The notes below the pieces were generated by a model. The model ran no database searches. It worked only from the letters and a program-made list of their open reading frames with translations, and was not told the origin of the DNA. Below are positions 48,779 through 57,969 of a stretch of 64,000 nucleotides of DNA, in pieces; position 1 is the stretch's first letter; the number at the start of each line of letters is the position of its first letter. The stretch spans positions 711,223 to 775,222 of the forward strand of contig NZ_JH947126.1 of the NCBI RefSeq assembly GCF_000302595.1, read 5' to 3'. Origin of the DNA: Pedobacter arcticus A12. Its GTDB lineage: Bacteria; Bacteroidota; Bacteroidia; Sphingobacteriales; Sphingobacteriaceae. Made by a program: the position numbers and the translations under genes.

Positions 48779-51700
48779 ATGCGTAAAATAACACTTATAT
48801 TATTTCCATTGTTTTTTATTTCGGGTGTAATTTTCGCTCAATTGCCCGCCTATTTTCAGGTTAACGAAAAGTATAAAATGGCAATGGAGTTGCTTTCGCA
48901 AGAAAAGTATGCGGCAGCTTCTTCTGTTTTTTACGAGGTAGAAAAGACAAAAAATATTGAAACGCCACAATCCGTAAGAAATTCGGAAATAAGCAACTTG
49001 AAAATCAACAGCGAATATTATAGAGCGTATTGTGCTTTGGCATTAGATAATGATGATGCTGAACAACTTTTTAAGCGTTTCATTAAAAACCATCCGGAAA
49101 GCCCAAAAGCTAAACAAGCTTTTTTTCAGGTCGGTAAATATTATTTTAGCCAAGGTGCGTACCAAGAAGCTTTAGATTGGTTCACAAAAGTTAGTTCCAT
49201 AGATTTAACCGGTAAAGAAGATACCGAGTATAAATTTAAAACTGCTTATGCTTATTTCGAAACGAAAGATTACGCAAGCGCAAAACCACTCTTTGGTTTG
49301 GTAAAAGATGAGCAATCGAAATATTCGGAACAAGCCACCTATTATTATGCTTATATCGCTTATGTAGATAAAGAATACGCTCTGGCCTTAAAAAACTTCG
49401 AAAAATTAAAGAACTCGAAAGCTTACGAAGCCAGCTACCCTTATTATATCTCTGCAATTTATTTTTTAGATAAAAGGTATGAAGATGTTTTGGCCTATGC
49501 CGTTCCAATCGTGGAAAACACAAAGCAGTTAAAAGAAACTGAAATGTTGCGCATTATTGCTGCATCTTATTTTGCTAAAGCCGATTACCCGAATGCCTTA
49601 TCCTATTATGAGCGTTTCATGAAACAGGATTTGGGTAAAACACAGAACAACCAAGACAGCTACCAAATTGGCTACACTTACTATAAATTAAAAAAATACA
49701 ATCAAGCTGTTGAGCAGTTGGGTAAATTAATTAACGACAAAACCGCTTACAGTCAGGCCGGTTTATACACTTTAGGTGATGCTTATTTAACTACCAAAAA
49801 CAAACAAGGCGCAAGAAATGCTTTCCAGTTTAGCTCTAAACTGGATTTCGACAAACAAATTGAAGAGGAAGCTTTATTTAACTTCGCCAAACTGTCTTAT
49901 GAACTGCAGTTCCACACTATCGCTTTAGACGCTGCGCAAGAATATCTAAAAAAATATCCCCGCTCAAAACATCTAAATGAAGCAAAAACCTTATTAGCAA
50001 AAGTTTTACTTAGCACAAAAAACTACCGAGATGCAATTGATATTTTGGAAGGTATTGAAGATAAAACACCAGACGCCAAAGAGGCTTACCAAAAAGTAAC
50101 CTATTACAGAGCTTTAGAATTTTATAACGAACGGGCTTTTGAAAATTCTATAGGTTTATTTTTACGTTCAAATAATTACCCAATAGATAAAGAGGTTTAC
50201 GCATTATCTACTTATTGGTGTGCCGAAGCAATGTATGAGGTAAGAAAATATAGTGAGTCTGTAAGCTACTTCGAGACCTTTTTAGGGATGAATGCTTCTA
50301 AAAAGACAGATTTATATAATTACGCTAATTATGCCTTGGGTTACGCAGCTTTAGAAGGAGAAAATTATCCTAAAGCTGCAACATACCTTGCTCGCTTCTT
50401 AAACGGAAACGAGAAAGACCCTAAAACAATTAAAGATGCTACGTTAAGATTGGCTGACGCTTATTTTGGCTCTAAAAACTATGGCGCTGCTTTAGGTTAT
50501 TATAACCGCATAATTGAACAACGCGGAAGCAGCGAGGATTATGCCTTATTTCAACGTGGTATTATAGAAGGTTTACAAAATCAGCCAGAAGTTAAGATTG
50601 CGACCTTATACTCATTATTGGCAAAGTTCCCGAATTCAAACTATTCTGATGATGCAGGTTTTGAAATCCCTTATACTTATTTTTTAATTGGCCAGGGTGA
50701 TAAAGCGAAAACAGATTTAACTAGTTTTATCCAAAAGTATCCAAGAAGTTCTTATGTGCCACGGGCTTTGGTCACTATCGGTTTGGTGAACTACGACCAG
50801 AAAAACGACCAGGTTGCACTAGAAACATTTAAAAGAGTTATTAGCGAATATAAATCAACCGATGAAGCACAACAATCATTAAAAATTATCCAAAAGATAT
50901 ATTTGGATATGGGTAATGCTACAGACTTTATCAATTATGCAAACACCACTTCTATCGGAAACTACAGCACTTCAGAACAAGACAATATCATGTTCCAGGC
51001 GGCAAATACGCAATACTTAAAAGGAAACTGGGAAGCCGCTGTAGAATCAGTAAATGCATATTTTGATAAATTCCCGAAAGCAATCCAAGATAAACAAGCC
51101 AAATTTATTAGGGCAGAAAGTTTTAAAAACTTAGGAAAGTTTGCACCCGCGATTATAGACTACGAGTACATTTTAAACGACTGGACCAGCGAATATACCG
51201 AACGGGCGCTCATCAGTATTTCTAAAATTTATTTGAACAACAAGCAATACAATGAAGCTATTGTCCACCTAAAAAAACTGGAAATAGCATCTGAGTATAA
51301 AGCCAACTATAATTTCGCGATCAATAATTTAATGATTGCCTATGCCGGCATTAACGTACCAGATCAAACTTTACTATATGTTGATTTGGTAAAAAATTAC
51401 GAAAAATCATCAGAAGAAGACCGTAACAAAGCCGGATTATACGCAGGTAAAGCGCAATTATTACTTGCTGATACTGCAAAAGCAAAAAAAGAATTTGAAG
51501 GTGTTGTAAAAGCAACCAAGACTATTGCAGGTGCAGAGGCATTATACAATATTGCAGAGATTCAATACCTTAAGAAAGATTATAAAGCATCTCAAAAAAC
51601 CTGTTTCCAGTTAATTAACGATATGCCAAGTTATGATTACTGGGGCGCAAAAAGCTTTATTTTATTATCTGACAACTATACAGCTCTGAAAGATAAAGTA

Positions 51701-51802
51701 CAAGCAATTGCTACCTTAAAAAGTATCATCGAAAATTATGATGGTAAAGACGAAATTTTAGAAACGGCAAAGAAAAAATTAGACGCAATCAACAGCAAAT
51801 AA
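48779..51802 (+). CDS. Exported TPR repeat protein
   Basis: A 1007-residue protein with signal peptide MRKITLILFPLFFISGVIFA. The mature chain is a long series of TPR-like helix pairs, for example AKQAFFQVGKYYFSQGAYQE and EALFNFAKLSYELQFHTIAL, spanning almost the whole length. It should sit in the periplasm as a scaffold. It opens a plus-strand cluster with an outer-membrane receptor, HU/SPOR protein, ExbB, ExbD and a TonB-like protein; joint envelope assembly or energising is inferred. Confidence 0.8.
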   Translation: MRKITLILFPLFFISGVIFAQLPAYFQVNEKYKMAMELLSQEKYAAASSVFYEVEKTKNIETPQSVRNSEISNLKINSEYYRAYCALALDNDDAEQLFKRFIKNHPESPKAKQAFFQVGKYYFSQGAYQEALDWFTKVSSIDLTGKEDTEYKFKTAYAYFETKDYASAKPLFGLVKDEQSKYSEQATYYYAYIAYVDKEYALALKNFEKLKNSKAYEASYPYYISAIYFLDKRYEDVLAYAVPIVENTKQLKETEMLRIIAASYFAKADYPNALSYYERFMKQDLGKTQNNQDSYQIGYTYYKLKKYNQAVEQLGKLINDKTAYSQAGLYTLGDAYLTTKNKQGARNAFQFSSKLDFDKQIEEEALFNFAKLSYELQFHTIALDAAQEYLKKYPRSKHLNEAKTLLAKVLLSTKNYRDAIDILEGIEDKTPDAKEAYQKVTYYRALEFYNERAFENSIGLFLRSNNYPIDKEVYALSTYWCAEAMYEVRKYSESVSYFETFLGMNASKKTDLYNYANYALGYAALEGENYPKAATYLARFLNGNEKDPKTIKDATLRLADAYFGSKNYGAALGYYNRIIEQRGSSEDYALFQRGIIEGLQNQPEVKIATLYSLLAKFPNSNYSDDAGFEIPYTYFLIGQGDKAKTDLTSFIQKYPRSSYVPRALVTIGLVNYDQKNDQVALETFKRVISEYKSTDEAQQSLKIIQKIYLDMGNATDFINYANTTSIGNYSTSEQDNIMFQAANTQYLKGNWEAAVESVNAYFDKFPKAIQDKQAKFIRAESFKNLGKFAPAIIDYEYILNDWTSEYTERALISISKIYLNNKQYNEAIVHLKKLEIASEYKANYNFAINNLMIAYAGINVPDQTLLYVDLVKNYEKSSEEDRNKAGLYAGKAQLLLADTAKAKKEFEGVVKATKTIAGAEALYNIAEIQYLKKDYKASQKTCFQLINDMPSYDYWGAKSFILLSDNYTALKDKVQAIATLKSIIENYDGKDEILETAKKKLDAINSK

Positions 51803-51806
51803 AACC

Positions 51807-53552
51807 ATGAATAATAAAACACCCTATATCAGCGCTTTTGTTTTCTTCAGCTTATTTGCGATTAATGTATCCGCACAAACGCCAGATAAAACCAAAGAAC
51901 CGGCAAAACCGGTAGTCACAAAAGAGAAAGCAACTGAAACCACTAAACAGGATACCAGCAAAAGAAACGCAGTTACAGAAGAGGTTGAAGTAGTTCGGTC
52001 ATACAAACCTGTTTTGGCAGATGCCGTAAAGATTAGAAGAAGTCCTAATTTAAGTGATACAAAGCCTTTTAACCCACAAGTTAAATACGATTTAATAGAT
52101 AAACGTTTAGAACTCAACAGTGGCATTAGGGAGCTGGAAGCGCAAAAATTAGCTAAAGAAATCGCAGAGCAGCGTCAGAATAATTTCGCGAAATTAGCCT
52201 TTGGAAACCTTGGAACGGGGTTAGCGCAACTTAACTTGGCAACCGGACAAGATCCTGCTTTACAGGCTGGCTTTAACTTTAACCACTTATCTATGAGCGG
52301 TAAAGAAAATCAACAGAAAATAAGCAAGCAATCTTTAAGTGGCTACGGACGTAGTATTGGAGATGAAATGGTGCTGGAAGGTAAACTAGGTTATGATAGA
52401 TTAGGAACTTATTTTTACGGCACCGACCAAATGGGATCTTTTACAAACCTAAATCCTGCAAAGCAACGTTTCAATTATTTTAATGCCGAAGGTTTATTGT
52501 TTAACAGAACCGACGCGGATGACGAAACCAGCTTCAGCTATGCTGCAAAAGCGAGTGCGTATATTTTCAACAATGCTTTTAAAGCTAAAGAAAACGCAGT
52601 AATTATTTCTGGTGGCTTAGGTAAAGATTTAAACAAATTCCATGTAGGTACAAACGCCGTAGTTGATATCACCACCAGTAAAGACTCGGCCTACAGCTTC
52701 AACAACAATATATTTAAGCTAAATCCGTACATCAAAATACAAACGGAAGTTTTAAAATTAACGGGCGGAATTAATTATGTAAATGAGTTTGGTGGCAATC
52801 AACGTATCCATATTTTTCCAGCTGCTAGTTTAGATTTTATGTTGATCAAAAACTACCTAACCATCTTTGGTAATTTCGGTGGCAACGTAGAAAAAACCAC
52901 TTTAAAAGGTTTATCAGACGTAAATCCATACATCAATCAAAACGTATTGTTAAAAAACACGGTTGAAAAATTTTACGTCTCTGGTGGTATTAGAGGAACT
53001 TTTGCACCAAATATTGGTTATAAAGCAATGGTCAGCTATAAAACAATTGGCGATCTATCGTACTTTGTAAACGATAGTACCGAAAGAAACAAGTTTAACG
53101 TTGCATACATGACTGGCAACACCAAAGTTATTGGCTTTGATGGTGAATTGAACATCAGTTTCTCTGATGCTTTTAATTTAGATAGTAAAATTGCCATTAA
53201 GCAGTATGATAACAGCAAGGAAGACTACGCTTGGTTACGTCCGGGTTTCACATTACAATCTACCGCTTCGTTTAAAATTGTAGATAAAGTGAAGATTTCT
53301 GGAGATTTATTGTTCCAAGGCGAAACCAAAGCTAAAATTTTTGACATCCCAAGTAATTTCCCCAACCCTACTTACACCGCTAAAGCAATTAAAGCTTTCG
53401 CCGATATTAGCGTAGGTGCAGATTACCAATACAACAAACAGATTTCTGCGTTTTTTAGAGTAAATAACATTTTAGGAAACGAATACCAGCGCCTTCCCTA
53501 CTATAATAATTACGGGATAAATATATTGGGCGGAGTTAGCTATGGCTTTTAG
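51807..53552 (+). CDS. TonB-dependent receptor-like outer-membrane protein
   Basis: A 581-residue beta barrel with signal peptide MNNKTPYISAFVFFSLFAINVSA. It has a short lysine/threonine-rich N-terminal region with EEVEVVRSYKPVLADAVK, then barrel strands (LSGYGRSIGDEMVLEGKLGY and others) and a C-terminal strand NILGGVSYGF. The usual plug domain is small or absent, making it a reduced member of the family. Gap to the TPR gene is 4 bp; the two are surely co-transcribed. Confidence 0.72.
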   Translation: MNNKTPYISAFVFFSLFAINVSAQTPDKTKEPAKPVVTKEKATETTKQDTSKRNAVTEEVEVVRSYKPVLADAVKIRRSPNLSDTKPFNPQVKYDLIDKRLELNSGIRELEAQKLAKEIAEQRQNNFAKLAFGNLGTGLAQLNLATGQDPALQAGFNFNHLSMSGKENQQKISKQSLSGYGRSIGDEMVLEGKLGYDRLGTYFYGTDQMGSFTNLNPAKQRFNYFNAEGLLFNRTDADDETSFSYAAKASAYIFNNAFKAKENAVIISGGLGKDLNKFHVGTNAVVDITTSKDSAYSFNNNIFKLNPYIKIQTEVLKLTGGINYVNEFGGNQRIHIFPAASLDFMLIKNYLTIFGNFGGNVEKTTLKGLSDVNPYINQNVLLKNTVEKFYVSGGIRGTFAPNIGYKAMVSYKTIGDLSYFVNDSTERNKFNVAYMTGNTKVIGFDGELNISFSDAFNLDSKIAIKQYDNSKEDYAWLRPGFTLQSTASFKIVDKVKISGDLLFQGETKAKIFDIPSNFPNPTYTAKAIKAFADISVGADYQYNKQISAFFRVNNILGNEYQRLPYYNNYGINILGGVSYGF

Positions 53553-53597
53553 AATTTTTTAGGTGACTACACTTAAAAAAACTACTTTTACAAATTG

Positions 53598-54659
53598 ATG
53601 GAGATTTCAAACTATTTAGTAGAACTTATAACAGACAAAGATCAGGTTACCGTACCTGGTTTGGGCAAGTTTTTAAAAAAACGCAAGCCCGGCTATTATG
53701 ACGACGCTACTAAAACATACTTTCCGCCAAGTGGAGAAGTTGTTTATACTGCTGATTACATGCATGACGATAAGTTGGTGCACCTCATCAGTCAGCGCAA
53801 AGAAACTTCATTGACTGCCGCCTATGCAATTTTAGACGAATATATCAGAGAAATAAAACTTGCACTCAAAAATAACGAGGTTAACCTGAAAGGCATTGGT
53901 ATTTTAAAAGATAACGGCGGGCAAATTAGCCTAACATCAGAAACAGAAACAAACCTAAACAAAGCATTTTTTGGTTTACCGGCGGTTGACACCTTATCGG
54001 CTAAATTAGTTGGCGTAGAAACCGAGACCTATAGTTTGGCGCAACAAGCGTTAAACACCTCAATACCAGATGAACTTTTTGAACAAGAGCCACGCCGAGG
54101 CGTTGTTGCCATTACAATGGGTATTATTGCGGTAGTAATATTAGCTGGCGTAATTGCTTTATACTTTGCAAAGCCAGATATTTATAAGAAATTAGTTACG
54201 CAGATTCAGAATTACACTATCTCAAAGCCCAGTGCTACGCCAATAGCGCCGGTCGAGCCACAAAAGGAAAGTTCGGGCGCCATCGCGTTACAAAAAGCAG
54301 ATTCGATTTACCATGGTGATGATATTGAATCAAAACTCAAAGCAGAAGGTTTTGAGGTTGAAAAAGTTAAAGATTCTACCAATGTTTCGGTAAAACCTAA
54401 GTTTTTGCCGAAAAAAGGAGATATTAAGTACGAAATTATTATCGGATTATACACAAGACGCGAAGATGCCGTTAAAAGAGTGAGCCAGTTAAAGGCAAAT
54501 GGAATTGATGCACACATTGTGGAGGACGCAGACGGACCAATGATTAAGATTAGTTGTGCAACATTATACAATGAGGCCGATGCAATAAAAGAAGAAGCAA
54601 GAGTAAGAGAAGAGTTAAACCCAGAAGCATTTAAAAAAGCGATTAAAATATTAAAATAA
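53598..54659 (+). CDS. HU-CCDC81-like and SPOR domain protein
   Basis: A 353-residue protein with three parts. The N-terminal half (about 1-150) starts MEISNYLVELITDKDQVTV and matches the bacterial HU-CCDC81 double domain. A membrane helix (about 170-192, VVAITMGIIAVVILAGVIAL) follows. The C-terminal SPOR domain (about 270-345, KYEIIIGLYTRREDAVKRVS) binds denuded peptidoglycan in known relatives. It may link cytoplasmic DNA or filaments to the wall at division sites. The ATG at 53598 is preferred over the TTG at 53595. Confidence 0.82.
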   Translation: MEISNYLVELITDKDQVTVPGLGKFLKKRKPGYYDDATKTYFPPSGEVVYTADYMHDDKLVHLISQRKETSLTAAYAILDEYIREIKLALKNNEVNLKGIGILKDNGGQISLTSETETNLNKAFFGLPAVDTLSAKLVGVETETYSLAQQALNTSIPDELFEQEPRRGVVAITMGIIAVVILAGVIALYFAKPDIYKKLVTQIQNYTISKPSATPIAPVEPQKESSGAIALQKADSIYHGDDIESKLKAEGFEVEKVKDSTNVSVKPKFLPKKGDIKYEIIIGLYTRREDAVKRVSQLKANGIDAHIVEDADGPMIKISCATLYNEADAIKEEARVREELNPEAFKKAIKILK

Positions 54660-54662
54660 AAT

Positions 54663-55361
54663 ATGTTTTTACAAGACACCCTACAACCATTAACAGACAC
54701 CGCAACAAACGCTGTTTCTGCATTACAAGCTAGCCCCAACCAAGAATTAAGTTTATTTGAATTGCTAACAAAAGGTGGCTGGGTAATGATACCGCTGGCA
54801 ATTTTGGCATTATTAGGCTTAGTTATTTTCTTTGAACGTTACTTAACCATTAGAAAAGCAAATAGAGACGAATCGCAATTAACAATGCAGGTACGTTCAA
54901 GTATCAAAACAGGTAATTTAGATTCGGCAATAGCGATTTGTAAAAGTAGCAACACCCCACTTGGGCGTATGTTACAAAAAGGTTTGTTAAGAATTGGTCG
55001 CCCTATTAAAGATATTGAAGGCGCTATCGAAAACATTGGTCGTTTGGAGGTTTCCAAACTGGAGAAAAACTTAGGGATTTTAGGTGTTATTGCTGGTATT
55101 GCTCCTATGTTAGGTTTCGTGGGAACAATTATTGGGGTAATTACTATTTTTCATGATGTATCTGTAAAAGGCGTGATTGAAATTGGAACCATTTCTGGTG
55201 GATTATACGTGAAAATGATTTCTTCTGCCACCGGATTAATCATCGGTATCATTGCTTACGTTTTGTACAATATTTTAGTGGCAATGGTTGATAAAGTGGT
55301 ATTAAAAATGGAAACAGATTCTATCGAATTTATTGATTTATTAGAAGAGCCAGGCCGATGA
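54663..55361 (+). CDS. exbB: ExbB/TolQ/MotA-type proton channel
   Basis: A 232-residue inner-membrane protein with three helices. IPLAILALLGLVIFFERYL opens it, and GIAPMLGFVGTIIGVITIF and SSATGLIIGIIAYVLYN are the conserved pore segments. With the downstream ExbD and TonB-like protein it forms a proton-driven energy unit. It overlaps exbD by 4 bp (ATGA). Confidence 0.9.
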   Translation: MFLQDTLQPLTDTATNAVSALQASPNQELSLFELLTKGGWVMIPLAILALLGLVIFFERYLTIRKANRDESQLTMQVRSSIKTGNLDSAIAICKSSNTPLGRMLQKGLLRIGRPIKDIEGAIENIGRLEVSKLEKNLGILGVIAGIAPMLGFVGTIIGVITIFHDVSVKGVIEIGTISGGLYVKMISSATGLIIGIIAYVLYNILVAMVDKVVLKMETDSIEFIDLLEEPGR

Positions 55362-55756
55362 ATCTAAGAAAAAGACAAAGACCACACGTAGAAGTTCATA
55401 CTTCTGCGTTGAACGATATTATGTTTTTTTTATTGCTGTTTTTCCTTTTGGCATCCGCAGTGGTAAATCCAAATGTGGTAAAATTATTTTTGCCCCGCTC
55501 TAGCTCTGGACAAGCTTCGCCACAAAAAACAATCAACGTATCTATCACCAAAGATTTACAATATTTTGTAGAAAAAGAGCAAGTTCCTTTTGCAGGATTA
55601 GAGCAAAAAATAGCAACTTTTCAACAAGCGAATCCCGATTTAACCGTTATACTTTATGCGGATAACAGCATTGCGATACAAAATGTAGTAAGCCTTACAG
55701 ATATTGCAAATAAGCTTAAAATTAAACTGGTGCTAGCCACTGAGCCACAAAAATGA
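55358..55756 (+). CDS. exbD: ExbD-type biopolymer transport protein
   Basis: A 132-residue protein with one N-terminal membrane helix carrying the proton-path aspartate (HTSALNDIMFFLLLFFLLAS) and a periplasmic C-terminal domain. Partner of the ExbB encoded upstream and the TonB-like protein downstream; both junctions overlap by 4 bp. Confidence 0.9.
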   Translation: MNLRKRQRPHVEVHTSALNDIMFFLLLFFLLASAVVNPNVVKLFLPRSSSGQASPQKTINVSITKDLQYFVEKEQVPFAGLEQKIATFQQANPDLTVILYADNSIAIQNVVSLTDIANKLKIKLVLATEPQK

Positions 55757-56583
55757 TATCCATATTAAAGAACACTCCCGACAATAATTACCCGAAAGCT
55801 ATCGCTATTTCTGTTGGCTTATTGGTGGTTTTTTTATTGTTGAGCATCTTTTATATTGTGAGTAAGGCGCAAGCGCCAGAAGAAGTTGGTATCGGTGGTA
55901 TTATTGTAAACTACGGAACTTCTGACGAAGGTATGGGCAATGATTACATGAGTGTTGAAGAACCTTCTGTTGACCCAAATGCAAATGGCAAAGCTCCTGA
56001 TAAAATTACCCCAGATGAAACGGTTACTCAAAACACAAATTCGGCCAACACAGACAATAATATTGTAACGGATGACAACTCTGATGCTGTGAGTTTAAAC
56101 ACCAAAACTAACACTACAAAGACTGCTCCCACTCAAAAAACGGAAGACAAACCGGCAACTCCTGTAATTAATCAAAACGCCCTTTATAAAGGCAATAAAA
56201 ATAAAGGAACGGGAACTGGCGATGGAACAGGAAATGTTGCAGGTAACCAAGGAAAGCCTGAGGGCGATCCTTTAGCAAGTAATTATGATGGTACCGGTTC
56301 TGGAAATGGCGGTGTTGCTTTAGATTTGAAAAGTCGGAGGTTTGTTAGTCGTCCTGCTATCGATGATTCAGGTCAACAACGAGGCTTTATCGTTATCGAT
56401 ATTGTTGTAGATAGAAACGGCATTGTAATAAGTGCAACTGGCCCTGGAAGAGGTAGTTCATTAACGACCCCATCTCTTGTAGAGAAATGTGAGAAAGCCG
56501 CTTTGGGTTCTCGGTTTAACACTTTAGACAAAGCTCCAGAGAATCAAAACGGAACAATCGTTTTTAACTTTAAAGTGAAATAA
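55753..56583 (+). CDS. TonB-like energy transducer
   Basis: A 276-residue protein with one N-terminal membrane helix (about 15-37), a long Asn/Thr/Gly-rich periplasmic linker (for example NQGKPEGDPLASNYDGTGSG) and a C-terminal TonB_C-like domain (IVIDIVVDRNGIVISATG to GTIVFNFKVK). It should pass ExbBD force to outer-membrane receptors, perhaps the one encoded at 51807. The usual Pro-rich spacer is replaced by the Asn/Thr-rich linker. Confidence 0.8.
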   Translation: MISILKNTPDNNYPKAIAISVGLLVVFLLLSIFYIVSKAQAPEEVGIGGIIVNYGTSDEGMGNDYMSVEEPSVDPNANGKAPDKITPDETVTQNTNSANTDNNIVTDDNSDAVSLNTKTNTTKTAPTQKTEDKPATPVINQNALYKGNKNKGTGTGDGTGNVAGNQGKPEGDPLASNYDGTGSGNGGVALDLKSRRFVSRPAIDDSGQQRGFIVIDIVVDRNGIVISATGPGRGSSLTTPSLVEKCEKAALGSRFNTLDKAPENQNGTIVFNFKVK

Positions 56584-56688: not shown

Positions 56689-57969
56689 ATGAATTACCAC
56701 CAAACGCTTGATTACCTTTACGCTAAACTTCCCATGTTTACAAGAGTTGGTGCGATTGCATACAAAGCGGATTTAGACAATACCATTGCATTCTGCAAAC
56801 ATCTAAAAAATCCAGAAAAAAAGTTTAAAACTATACATATTGCCGGTACTAACGGAAAAGGTTCAACATCGCACATGTTAGCAGCTATTCTGCAAAAAGC
56901 AGGTTATAAAACTGGCTTATATACTTCGCCACATTTAAAAGATTTTAGGGAGCGCATTAAAATTAACGGCGAGATGATTTCTGAAAACGAAGTAACCGAC
57001 TTTGTGAAATCAAACCAAGACTTTATTGAAGCACTTTCACCATCGTTTTTTGAAGCAACAGTAGCAATGGCTTTTGAGCATTTTGCCAAACATAAAGTTG
57101 ATATTGCAGTAATAGAGGTTGGTTTAGGCGGAAGACTAGACTCCACCAATGTTATTTCACCACTACTTTCTGTAATTACCAATATCGGTTTCGACCATAT
57201 GAATTTGCTAGGAAATACTTTAACAGAGATTGCTGGCGAAAAAGCTGGTATTATTAAACCAGCAACACCTGTAATTGTAGGAGAACATCAGCCAGAAATA
57301 GCGATGGTGTTTGAAAACAAAGCGAAGGAAAACAACTCGTCCCTAACTTTTGCCAGCAATGAGTGGTGTTATGATGATAGTGAGCTAATTGATGGAAAAA
57401 GAGAAATCACCGTTCATGGTAAAGAAGATAGTTTCGACCTAAAATTAGATTTAACCGGCACTTACCAGGTTAAAAATGTAAAAACCGTACTATCAGCAGT
57501 TCAGGCGCTTAAAAGACAAGGTTTTGATATTTCCAATAACACGTTGATCTCCGCTTTAAGCGAAGTAAAAAACCTTACCGGCTTAATGGGAAGATGGCAA
57601 ACCTTACAAGAAAACCCTTTGGTTATTTGTGATACAGGCCATAATGAAGACGGTATCAAAGAAGTACTGTATAATATATCTTTAACCTCGCATAAACAGT
57701 TGCGGATTGTTATTGGAATGGTAAAGGACAAGGAAATTTCTAAAATATTGGAGCTTTTACCAAAAAATGCTATCTATTATTTCTGTTCGCCAAAAATTGA
57801 AAGAGCAAAATCTACAGAGGAATTAAAAAAAGAAGCTTCTCAATTTGGTTTAAACGGAGAAGCTTTTCCTGATATTGATACGGCCTTATCAAAAGCTAAA
57901 GCCGATGCCCAACGTGATGATTTAATATTTGTGGGCGGAAGCACATTTGTAGTTGCAGAAGTAGTTTAA
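56689..57969 (+). CDS. folC: Bifunctional folylpolyglutamate/dihydrofolate synthase
   Basis: Adds glutamate to folates and makes dihydrofolate. The 426 residues carry the P-loop AGTNGKGSTSHML and the Mur-ligase-like blocks VIEVGLGGRLDSTNV and ICDTGHNEDGIKE. The last gene of the plus-strand cluster, with a 105-bp gap after the TonB-like gene. No functional tie to its neighbours is obvious. Confidence 0.93.
   Translation: MNYHQTLDYLYAKLPMFTRVGAIAYKADLDNTIAFCKHLKNPEKKFKTIHIAGTNGKGSTSHMLAAILQKAGYKTGLYTSPHLKDFRERIKINGEMISENEVTDFVKSNQDFIEALSPSFFEATVAMAFEHFAKHKVDIAVIEVGLGGRLDSTNVISPLLSVITNIGFDHMNLLGNTLTEIAGEKAGIIKPATPVIVGEHQPEIAMVFENKAKENNSSLTFASNEWCYDDSELIDGKREITVHGKEDSFDLKLDLTGTYQVKNVKTVLSAVQALKRQGFDISNNTLISALSEVKNLTGLMGRWQTLQENPLVICDTGHNEDGIKEVLYNISLTSHKQLRIVIGMVKDKEISKILELLPKNAIYYFCSPKIERAKSTEELKKEASQFGLNGEAFPDIDTALSKAKADAQRDDLIFVGGSTFVVAEVV

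Follow-up and report, generated by a model that had tools for sequence, protein, structure and literature searches.

A cluster of six genes in Pedobacter arcticus A12 encodes what we take to be a real and near-universal machine of the Bacteroidota envelope, which joins a motor of a known kind to a new output side and for which a septal function can be inferred and tested. The cluster occupies positions 48779-56583 of the window, that is, the whole stretch of 64,000 nucleotides that was analysed (GCF_000302595.1, contig NZ_JH947126.1, 711,223-775,222 of the forward strand), and all its positions are numbered within this window. Its six open reading frames (ORFs), all on the plus strand and with verified coordinates, encode a tetratricopeptide repeat (TPR) protein, an outer-membrane barrel, a protein with HU and SPOR domains (HU/SPOR), an ExbB-type proton channel (ExbB1), ExbD and a TonB-like protein. 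These six tightly spaced genes had been described in the original prediction, and their coordinates, families and folds were confirmed; it further held that they form a dedicated energised machine at division or wall sites, not one for nutrient uptake. Bacteroidetes are described as having no identifiable tol-pal loci, with PorE proposed instead and other such systems yet to be revealed (PMC12204202). As to how Bacteroidota tether or constrict their outer membrane without Tol-Pal, the cluster is a candidate that is near-universal, usually present in single copy and powered by a motor, and its parts can be named. That it is a dedicated, proton-driven, trans-envelope machine doing Tol-Pal's job at wall or division sites is a reading to which we give slightly less than an even chance. 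No description of this cluster was found in the mainly open literature, as judged by titles and the beginnings of abstracts.

The components were searched in 119 genomes of the class Bacteroidia. The TPR profile matched 112 of them, the barrel was found in 111 (three, from family f77, as weak partial matches) and ExbB1 in 112, with one protein per genome at 206-357 bits and the next listed paralogues at 180 bits or less. Exactly two MotA_ExbB proteins were present in 102 of the 119 genomes, while eight had one, eight had three and one had none. In each of 14 loci retrieved, including that of the window's genome, the second ExbB belongs to an ExbB-ExbD-ExbD operon, with a small ORF in between in two. 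All three genomes of family f74 lack the TPR protein, the barrel and ExbB1 together and keep the second ExbB operon as well as HU/SPOR. Across the 119 genomes, TPR and ExbB1 were both present in 109, both absent in four and singly absent in three and three (p=1.4e-4, a value that ignores kinship). The four joint absences are the three f74 genomes and one 0.5-Mb genome, and the six one-sided absences fall in fragmented or incomplete assemblies. The joint absence in f74 ties the motor to the TPR-barrel pair, and it also indicates that HU/SPOR has an independent life. Together, the usually single copy, the near-universal presence in the sampled Bacteroidia and the f74 loss with retention of the second ExbB support well the idea of a dedicated energised machine.

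The TPR protein matched the NCBIfam YbgF-type TPR model at 167 bits (cut-off 90). The barrel had a sole Pfam match, weak and below the cut-off (Bact_transglu_N_2, E 0.0097), and was characterised by structure prediction. Its AlphaFold2 model, built from 28 sequences with a mean predicted local distance difference test score (pLDDT) of 72.6, shows an N-terminal helix, residues 17-123 under pLDDT 50, and strands over residues 127-580. Foldseek and VIA-align matched this fold to TonB-dependent transporters (BtuB in VIA-align, Z 21.3, 422 aligned residues, root-mean-square deviation (rmsd) 3.6), identifying a transporter-type barrel of about 22 strands. No plug was found in it by Pfam, and residues 17-123 are predicted to be disordered in the full-length model. 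The tail in the plug's place is conserved nonetheless: the occupancy-weighted information per column, computed from 65 sequences and the window's own, was 1.49 bits for residues 58-78 and 1.23 for residues 79-123, compared with 1.42 in the barrel and 0.27 in the gappy residues 25-55. A tail that is disordered yet conserved points to a binding partner. It includes a conserved stretch at residues 58-64, which we presume to be TonB-box-like. A single case places tail and TPR in one chain: genome G002, from the window's family, has a second copy (L266:6326-8932, minus strand) in which the barrel's N-terminal peptide is fused to TPR repeats in one open frame of 868 amino acids. This copy has clearly diverged, with 67% identity over 45 amino acids of the tail (relative to G002's own barrel) and 55% over 773 of the repeats. 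As a side observation, genome G206 of family f48 carries two full TPR-barrel pairs (L072 and L073), and G246 likewise has two matches of each.

The TonB-like protein gave no Pfam match at E 0.05. Its AlphaFold2 model has a mean pLDDT of 59.8, rising to about 90 in the C-terminal domain, for which the top rows in VIA-align were TonB C-terminal domains (Z 8.6, 78 aligned, rmsd 2.4). The top Foldseek rows were likewise TonB C-terminal domains, with a best E of only 1.5e-3. These results indicate a TonB C-terminal fold, and a relative encoded in locus L056 matches PF03544. For ExbB1, the best NCBIfam model was TolQ, at 70.4 bits, far under the cut-off of 221. In a phylogeny of ExbB proteins, with an arbitrary root on Escherichia coli ExbB, ExbB1 (a group of 55 sequences with support 72 that includes one longer variant) grouped with the second Bacteroidota ExbB (support 100), and two of the 14 second-type proteins (L261 and L263) fell beside ExbB1. 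All Bacteroidota ExbB proteins stood apart from three TolQ of family f16 and from E. coli TolQ and ExbB, so ExbB1 was not recovered as a TolQ orthologue.

We surveyed Tol-Pal in 198 genomes of the phylum, counting TolB as full-length over 330 bits. The TPR protein was present in 143 genomes, including 49 of 49 Bacteroidia, and full TolB with Pal in 43; no genome had both, and 12 had neither. Full TolB was confined to family f16 (41 genomes over the cut-off and two just under), the next best match being partial at 171 bits, and Pal over the cut-off was likewise found in 43 genomes, all f16. Partial matches were nearly ubiquitous (189 of 198 genomes for the TolB model and 187 of 198 for Pal). 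As PF02327 (BChl A protein family, the Fenna-Matthews-Olson protein) was detected in 12 of 12 f16 genomes tested, we took this family to be Chlorobi, a group named among the tol-pal holders (PMC7391070). PF04052 matched in six of the 198 genomes, five from f16 and one, G135 (f28), which has TPR too; in G135 the match lies inside a 1037-amino-acid frame and full TolB is absent. The PF04052 control was also positive in Bacteroides ihuae. In the window's genome, the best TIGR02800 match (E 4.2e-20) lay below the cut-off for full TolB and PF04052 had no match, while the best Pal match reached 93.4 bits (cut-off 125.35), a weaker OmpA-like match of the kind seen in the 187 genomes. This pattern fits replacement of TolB-Pal. 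A diverged tol-pal operon was rejected by the ExbB tree and the missing TolB and Pal.

Gene order was assessed in named loci, the best 80 of 566 relatives, 69 of which were eligible by having enough downstream sequence. The closest named loci were those of Pelobium manganitolerans (TPR 88% identical) and Pedobacter psychrophilus. The order TPR-barrel-HU/SPOR-ExbB-ExbD was found in 66 of the 69, which is far from chance: 58 had the whole run to folC, seven lacked folC only, one ran up to ExbD and three had TPR-barrel alone. In a wider sample of 55 families, each represented by one or two loci, the barrel lay directly 3′ of TPR in 49. Outside the window's family, the cluster is often split into two or three blocks. 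Among 40 ExbB1-centred loci, hand-picked rather than random and scanned with a loose TonB profile (scores from 26 bits), 30 had an ExbB-ExbD-TonB-like order apart from TPR-barrel, with folC next in 17. HU/SPOR lay directly 5′ of ExbB, without the barrel, in four of the 40 (L208, L214, L237 and L238, chosen because an HU match adjoined ExbB). Outside the class, HU/SPOR-ExbB-ExbD occurred in L054, L056, L058 and L059, reached via weak HU matches, with TPR upstream in L054, L058 and L059; the barrel profile did not recognise the ORF (c28) that takes the barrel's position in L058 and L059. The cluster is, therefore, a union of blocks that also occur separately, namely TPR-barrel and (HU/SPOR)-ExbB-ExbD-TonB-folC. 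In three families (cluster c48), a DUF4294 gene, so assigned from L119 (L119:7757-8332), lies directly 3′ of the barrel (also in L096 and L117).

The neighbourhood of the TPR-barrel pair bears on its function. In 16 families, a short ATP-binding cassette ATPase, ftsE-like, is encoded immediately upstream of TPR on the opposite strand, head to head. Of the 19 short members of this ATPase cluster, 18 scored highest with the NCBIfam model FtsE (222-251 bits, none reaching the cut-off of 264.85), and the next-best model scored 189 bits or less; the remaining one (L080) is LolD-like and located elsewhere. In E. coli, FtsEX is reported to couple septal wall synthesis and hydrolysis (PMC7343993). The ftsE-like neighbour makes a division role slightly more likely, and the 16 families may share one ancestral neighbourhood and, hence, not be 16 independent events. 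Within five genes of TPR or barrel, gyrB occurred in 14 families and murB in five.

HU/SPOR is the weakest link in the proposed machine. It scored 38.3 bits with HU-CCDC81_bac_1 (Pfam cut-off 26), 29.1 with HU-CCDC81_bac_2 (below the cut-off of 35) and 21.0 with SPOR, exactly the Pfam cut-off of 21. The SPOR part of the family profile weakly matched FtsN (E 0.0036) and a sporulation amidase (E 1.9e-4), and the tandem HU-like domains weakly matched HU and IHF structures (best E 0.0039). By hydropathy, all but one of 71 Sphingobacteriaceae-type sequences have exactly one membrane helix, which starts at residues 161-438, and so do 29 of 35 others (in one of them it lies before residue 40), with two helices in two and none in four. 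A single helix predicts a cytoplasmic HU part and a periplasmic SPOR part; SPOR domains are reported to recognise denuded septal glycan (PMC6895207). The whole-protein profile matched 111 of 119 Bacteroidia genomes, including SPOR-only matches, whereas PF18174 alone undercounts the protein (37 of 49 Bacteroidia at E 0.01). The HU/SPOR relatives of family f3 (L041 and L042, 251-258 amino acids) seem short at the SPOR end. In family f4 (L043, L044, L045 and L053), HU/SPOR adjoins genes that we take to be dprA-like and acyl-CoA-thioesterase-like.

These data suggest the following model. Powered by the proton gradient, ExbB1 and ExbD would set the TonB-like protein in motion; with its C-terminal domain, this protein would reach the outer membrane and there engage and pull the conserved unfolded tail of the barrel. 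The very long periplasmic TPR solenoid would hold the plug-less barrel and its tail in a physical complex, and HU/SPOR would target this complex to denuded peptidoglycan and hence to division sites. Pulling would tether or constrict the outer membrane, as Tol-Pal does elsewhere. More broadly, Bacteroidota and their near kin may have replaced Tol-Pal with an independently evolved Ton-type machine, in which ExbB1-ExbD-TonB, pulling on the tail of the TPR-held barrel, makes the outer membrane invaginate at the septum in step with FtsE-type septal wall control; this fuller scenario is tentative, and we think it less likely than the general idea of a Tol-Pal substitute. If the machine works as proposed, it would be a case of a nutrient-receptor barrel that has shed its plug and taken on a new role as a mechanical handle. 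As for the original prediction as a whole, the energised machine is upheld, and its placement at division or wall sites is suggested by the SPOR domain, the ftsE-like gene in 16 families and the finding that TPR and full TolB-Pal coexist in none of the sampled genomes.

Several observations weigh against a Tol-Pal substitute at the septum. The Tol-Pal side of the mutual exclusion consists of one family (f16), and the 12 genomes with neither system include, among five tested, two (f14 and f27) that are PF02327-positive like f16, so some Chlorobi have neither TPR nor TolB-Pal. Since ExbB1 does not group with TolQ, the motor is no diverged Tol motor and could only be an analogue. PorE is itself proposed for the tethering role (PMC12204202). 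The membrane-helix histidine of TonB is called essential for motor contact in the same source; in an alignment, it is absent from the motor position in 28 of 28 Sphingobacteriaceae-type TonB-like rows and present in six of nine rows of other families. A script found a histidine near the helix in 15 of 67 TonB-like proteins, and the alignment showed none at the motor position. Motor coupling in the Sphingobacteriaceae-type proteins must, therefore, differ. Only 14 of 55 families, one with a weak match (f82), have HU/SPOR directly 3′ of the barrel; the scattering among relatives that the original prediction had named as contrary evidence was, thus, half found, the TPR-barrel pair having stayed together. 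Given this and its retention in the three f74 genomes without TPR, barrel and ExbB1 (L254, L255 and L256), HU/SPOR may stand apart from the machine. Family f74 is represented by fragmented assemblies of 170-400 contigs. The HU fold is one that binds DNA, with no obvious fit to outer-membrane constriction. Lastly, the window's own cluster has no ftsE-like neighbour, and glycosyltransferase-like genes of clusters c10 and c12 (with examples below and above the Pfam cut-off, respectively) recur no more than five genes from TPR or barrel, in 11 and eight families.

The last point suits an export or assembly machine, which we regard as unlikely, albeit the strongest competitor. The plug-less barrel would be an exit pore fed by the TPR protein, ExbBD-TonB would power export of surface lipoproteins, polysaccharide or lipopolysaccharide-like material, and HU/SPOR would be separate, often in the same operon. 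TPR plus barrel is the layout of the known exporters PgaA, BcsC and AlgK/AlgE; here it is the tightest pair, without which HU/SPOR persists in f74, and the barrel, of TonB-receptor size, has no predicted plug. However, the neighbourhoods with glycosyltransferase-like genes also carry the adjacent ftsE-like gene, gyrB and murB and so look like a housekeeping region, and export does not predict that none of the sampled TPR genomes has full TolB-Pal. An ordinary second nutrient Ton system, with TPR, barrel and HU/SPOR as mere neighbours, seems improbable. The predicted TonB-type C-terminal fold and receptor-type barrel accord with it, as do the 30 ExbB1 loci whose motor genes stand apart from TPR-barrel. 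Against this, most Bacteroidia have a second ExbB in its own operon, f74 retained that one while losing ExbB1 with TPR-barrel, and the linked receptor has no recognised plug; the f74 loss and the missing plug support the earlier claim that the machine does not serve nutrient uptake, short of proving it. Least probable is a chromosome-envelope coupler, in which cytoplasmic HU would bind DNA near the septum, SPOR hold the wall, and motor and barrel serve as anchor: the HU/IHF-like domains, single helix and FtsN- and amidase-like SPOR part would suit it, but HU/SPOR is separable from the motor (in f74 and in family gene orders) and DNA binding by this HU clade is putative. A part in type IX secretion was rejected, as TPR occurs in 49 of 49 sampled Bacteroidia but this secretion is reported from only some species (PMC5445135), and the TPR protein's NCBIfam PorW/SprE match was 46.9 (cut-off 250). 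The β-barrel assembly machinery was set apart by description only, the Flavobacterium johnsoniae subunits given as BamA, D, G, H, M and P with no 'TPR' named in that account (PMC12611786).

The features of the locus are collected in Table 1. Neighbouring genes are 3-45 bases apart or overlap by 4: the TPR/barrel gap is 4, the HU/SPOR/ExbB gap 3, and both ExbB/ExbD and ExbD/TonB overlap by 4. The barrel/HU/SPOR gap is 42 from the listed TTG and 45 from an ATG three bases on, which matches the starts in relatives. Upstream of the cluster lie pyrR and pyrB, and downstream folC, which is not thought to be part of the machine. Motif scans gave 33 sigma-70-type promoter sites (35.1 expected), 13 terminator-like sites (10.0 expected) and one Bacteroidota-type promoter motif (4.6 expected).

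Table 1. Features of the cluster and its downstream neighbour, numbered within the window.
Feature	Position	Strand	Basis or remark
TPR solenoid, 1007 aa (amino acids)	48779..51802	+	Pfam/NCBIfam; hydrophobic N-terminal stretch aa 4-22 (signal-like); probably periplasmic
Plug-less outer-membrane barrel, TonB-dependent-transporter type, 581 aa, ~22 strands from aa 127	51807..53552	+	AlphaFold2, Foldseek, VIA-align
Barrel N-terminal tail, aa 58-123, in the plug's place	51978..52175	+	Low pLDDT, yet conserved
HU/SPOR protein: tandem HU (CCDC81-type), one membrane helix (~54102-54158), C-terminal SPOR (Pfam match 54411-54521)	53598..54659	+	
ExbB1, cluster-type proton channel	54663..55361	+	MotA_ExbB 78.7 bits; tree
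ExbD	55358..55756	+	ExbD 87.8 bits
TonB-like force transducer: membrane helix aa 13-38, disordered 44-188, TonB C-terminal fold ~aa 187-276	55753..56583	+	AlphaFold2
folC (folylpolyglutamate synthase)	56689..57969	+	Recurrent neighbour of ExbB-ExbD-TonB

The cluster resembles several known systems in part. With Tol-Pal (TolQRA-TolB-Pal-CpoB) it shares an ExbB/TolQ-type motor, a TonB/TolA-type C-terminal fold in the transducer, a TPR protein and a link to peptidoglycan; it differs in that the window's genome has neither full TolB nor Pal above the cut-off, ExbB1 does not group with TolQ, and a barrel and HU/SPOR are found instead. ExbBD-TonB with its TonB-dependent transporters has the same motor family, TonB C-terminal fold and transporter-type barrel, whereas the barrel of the cluster has no recognised plug, bears a conserved and disordered tail and keeps a standing partnership with one TPR protein, and a second ExbB operon is present alongside in most genomes. 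CCDC81-type HU and SPOR proteins have the Pfam HU-CCDC81 domain and, by a match exactly at the cut-off here, the SPOR domain in common with HU/SPOR, which, unlike them, is encoded in one operon together with a barrel and a proton-driven motor. Finally, PorE, a proposed CpoB-TolB-Pal fusion of Bacteroidetes, has likewise been put forward for the Tol-Pal role that is missing in this phylum; it is presented as a single lipoprotein of several domains, which comprise CpoB (TPR), TolB, carboxypeptidase and Pal parts, and as connected with type IX secretion (PMC12204202), and, by that description, the TPR is the only kind of part that it has in common with the cluster.

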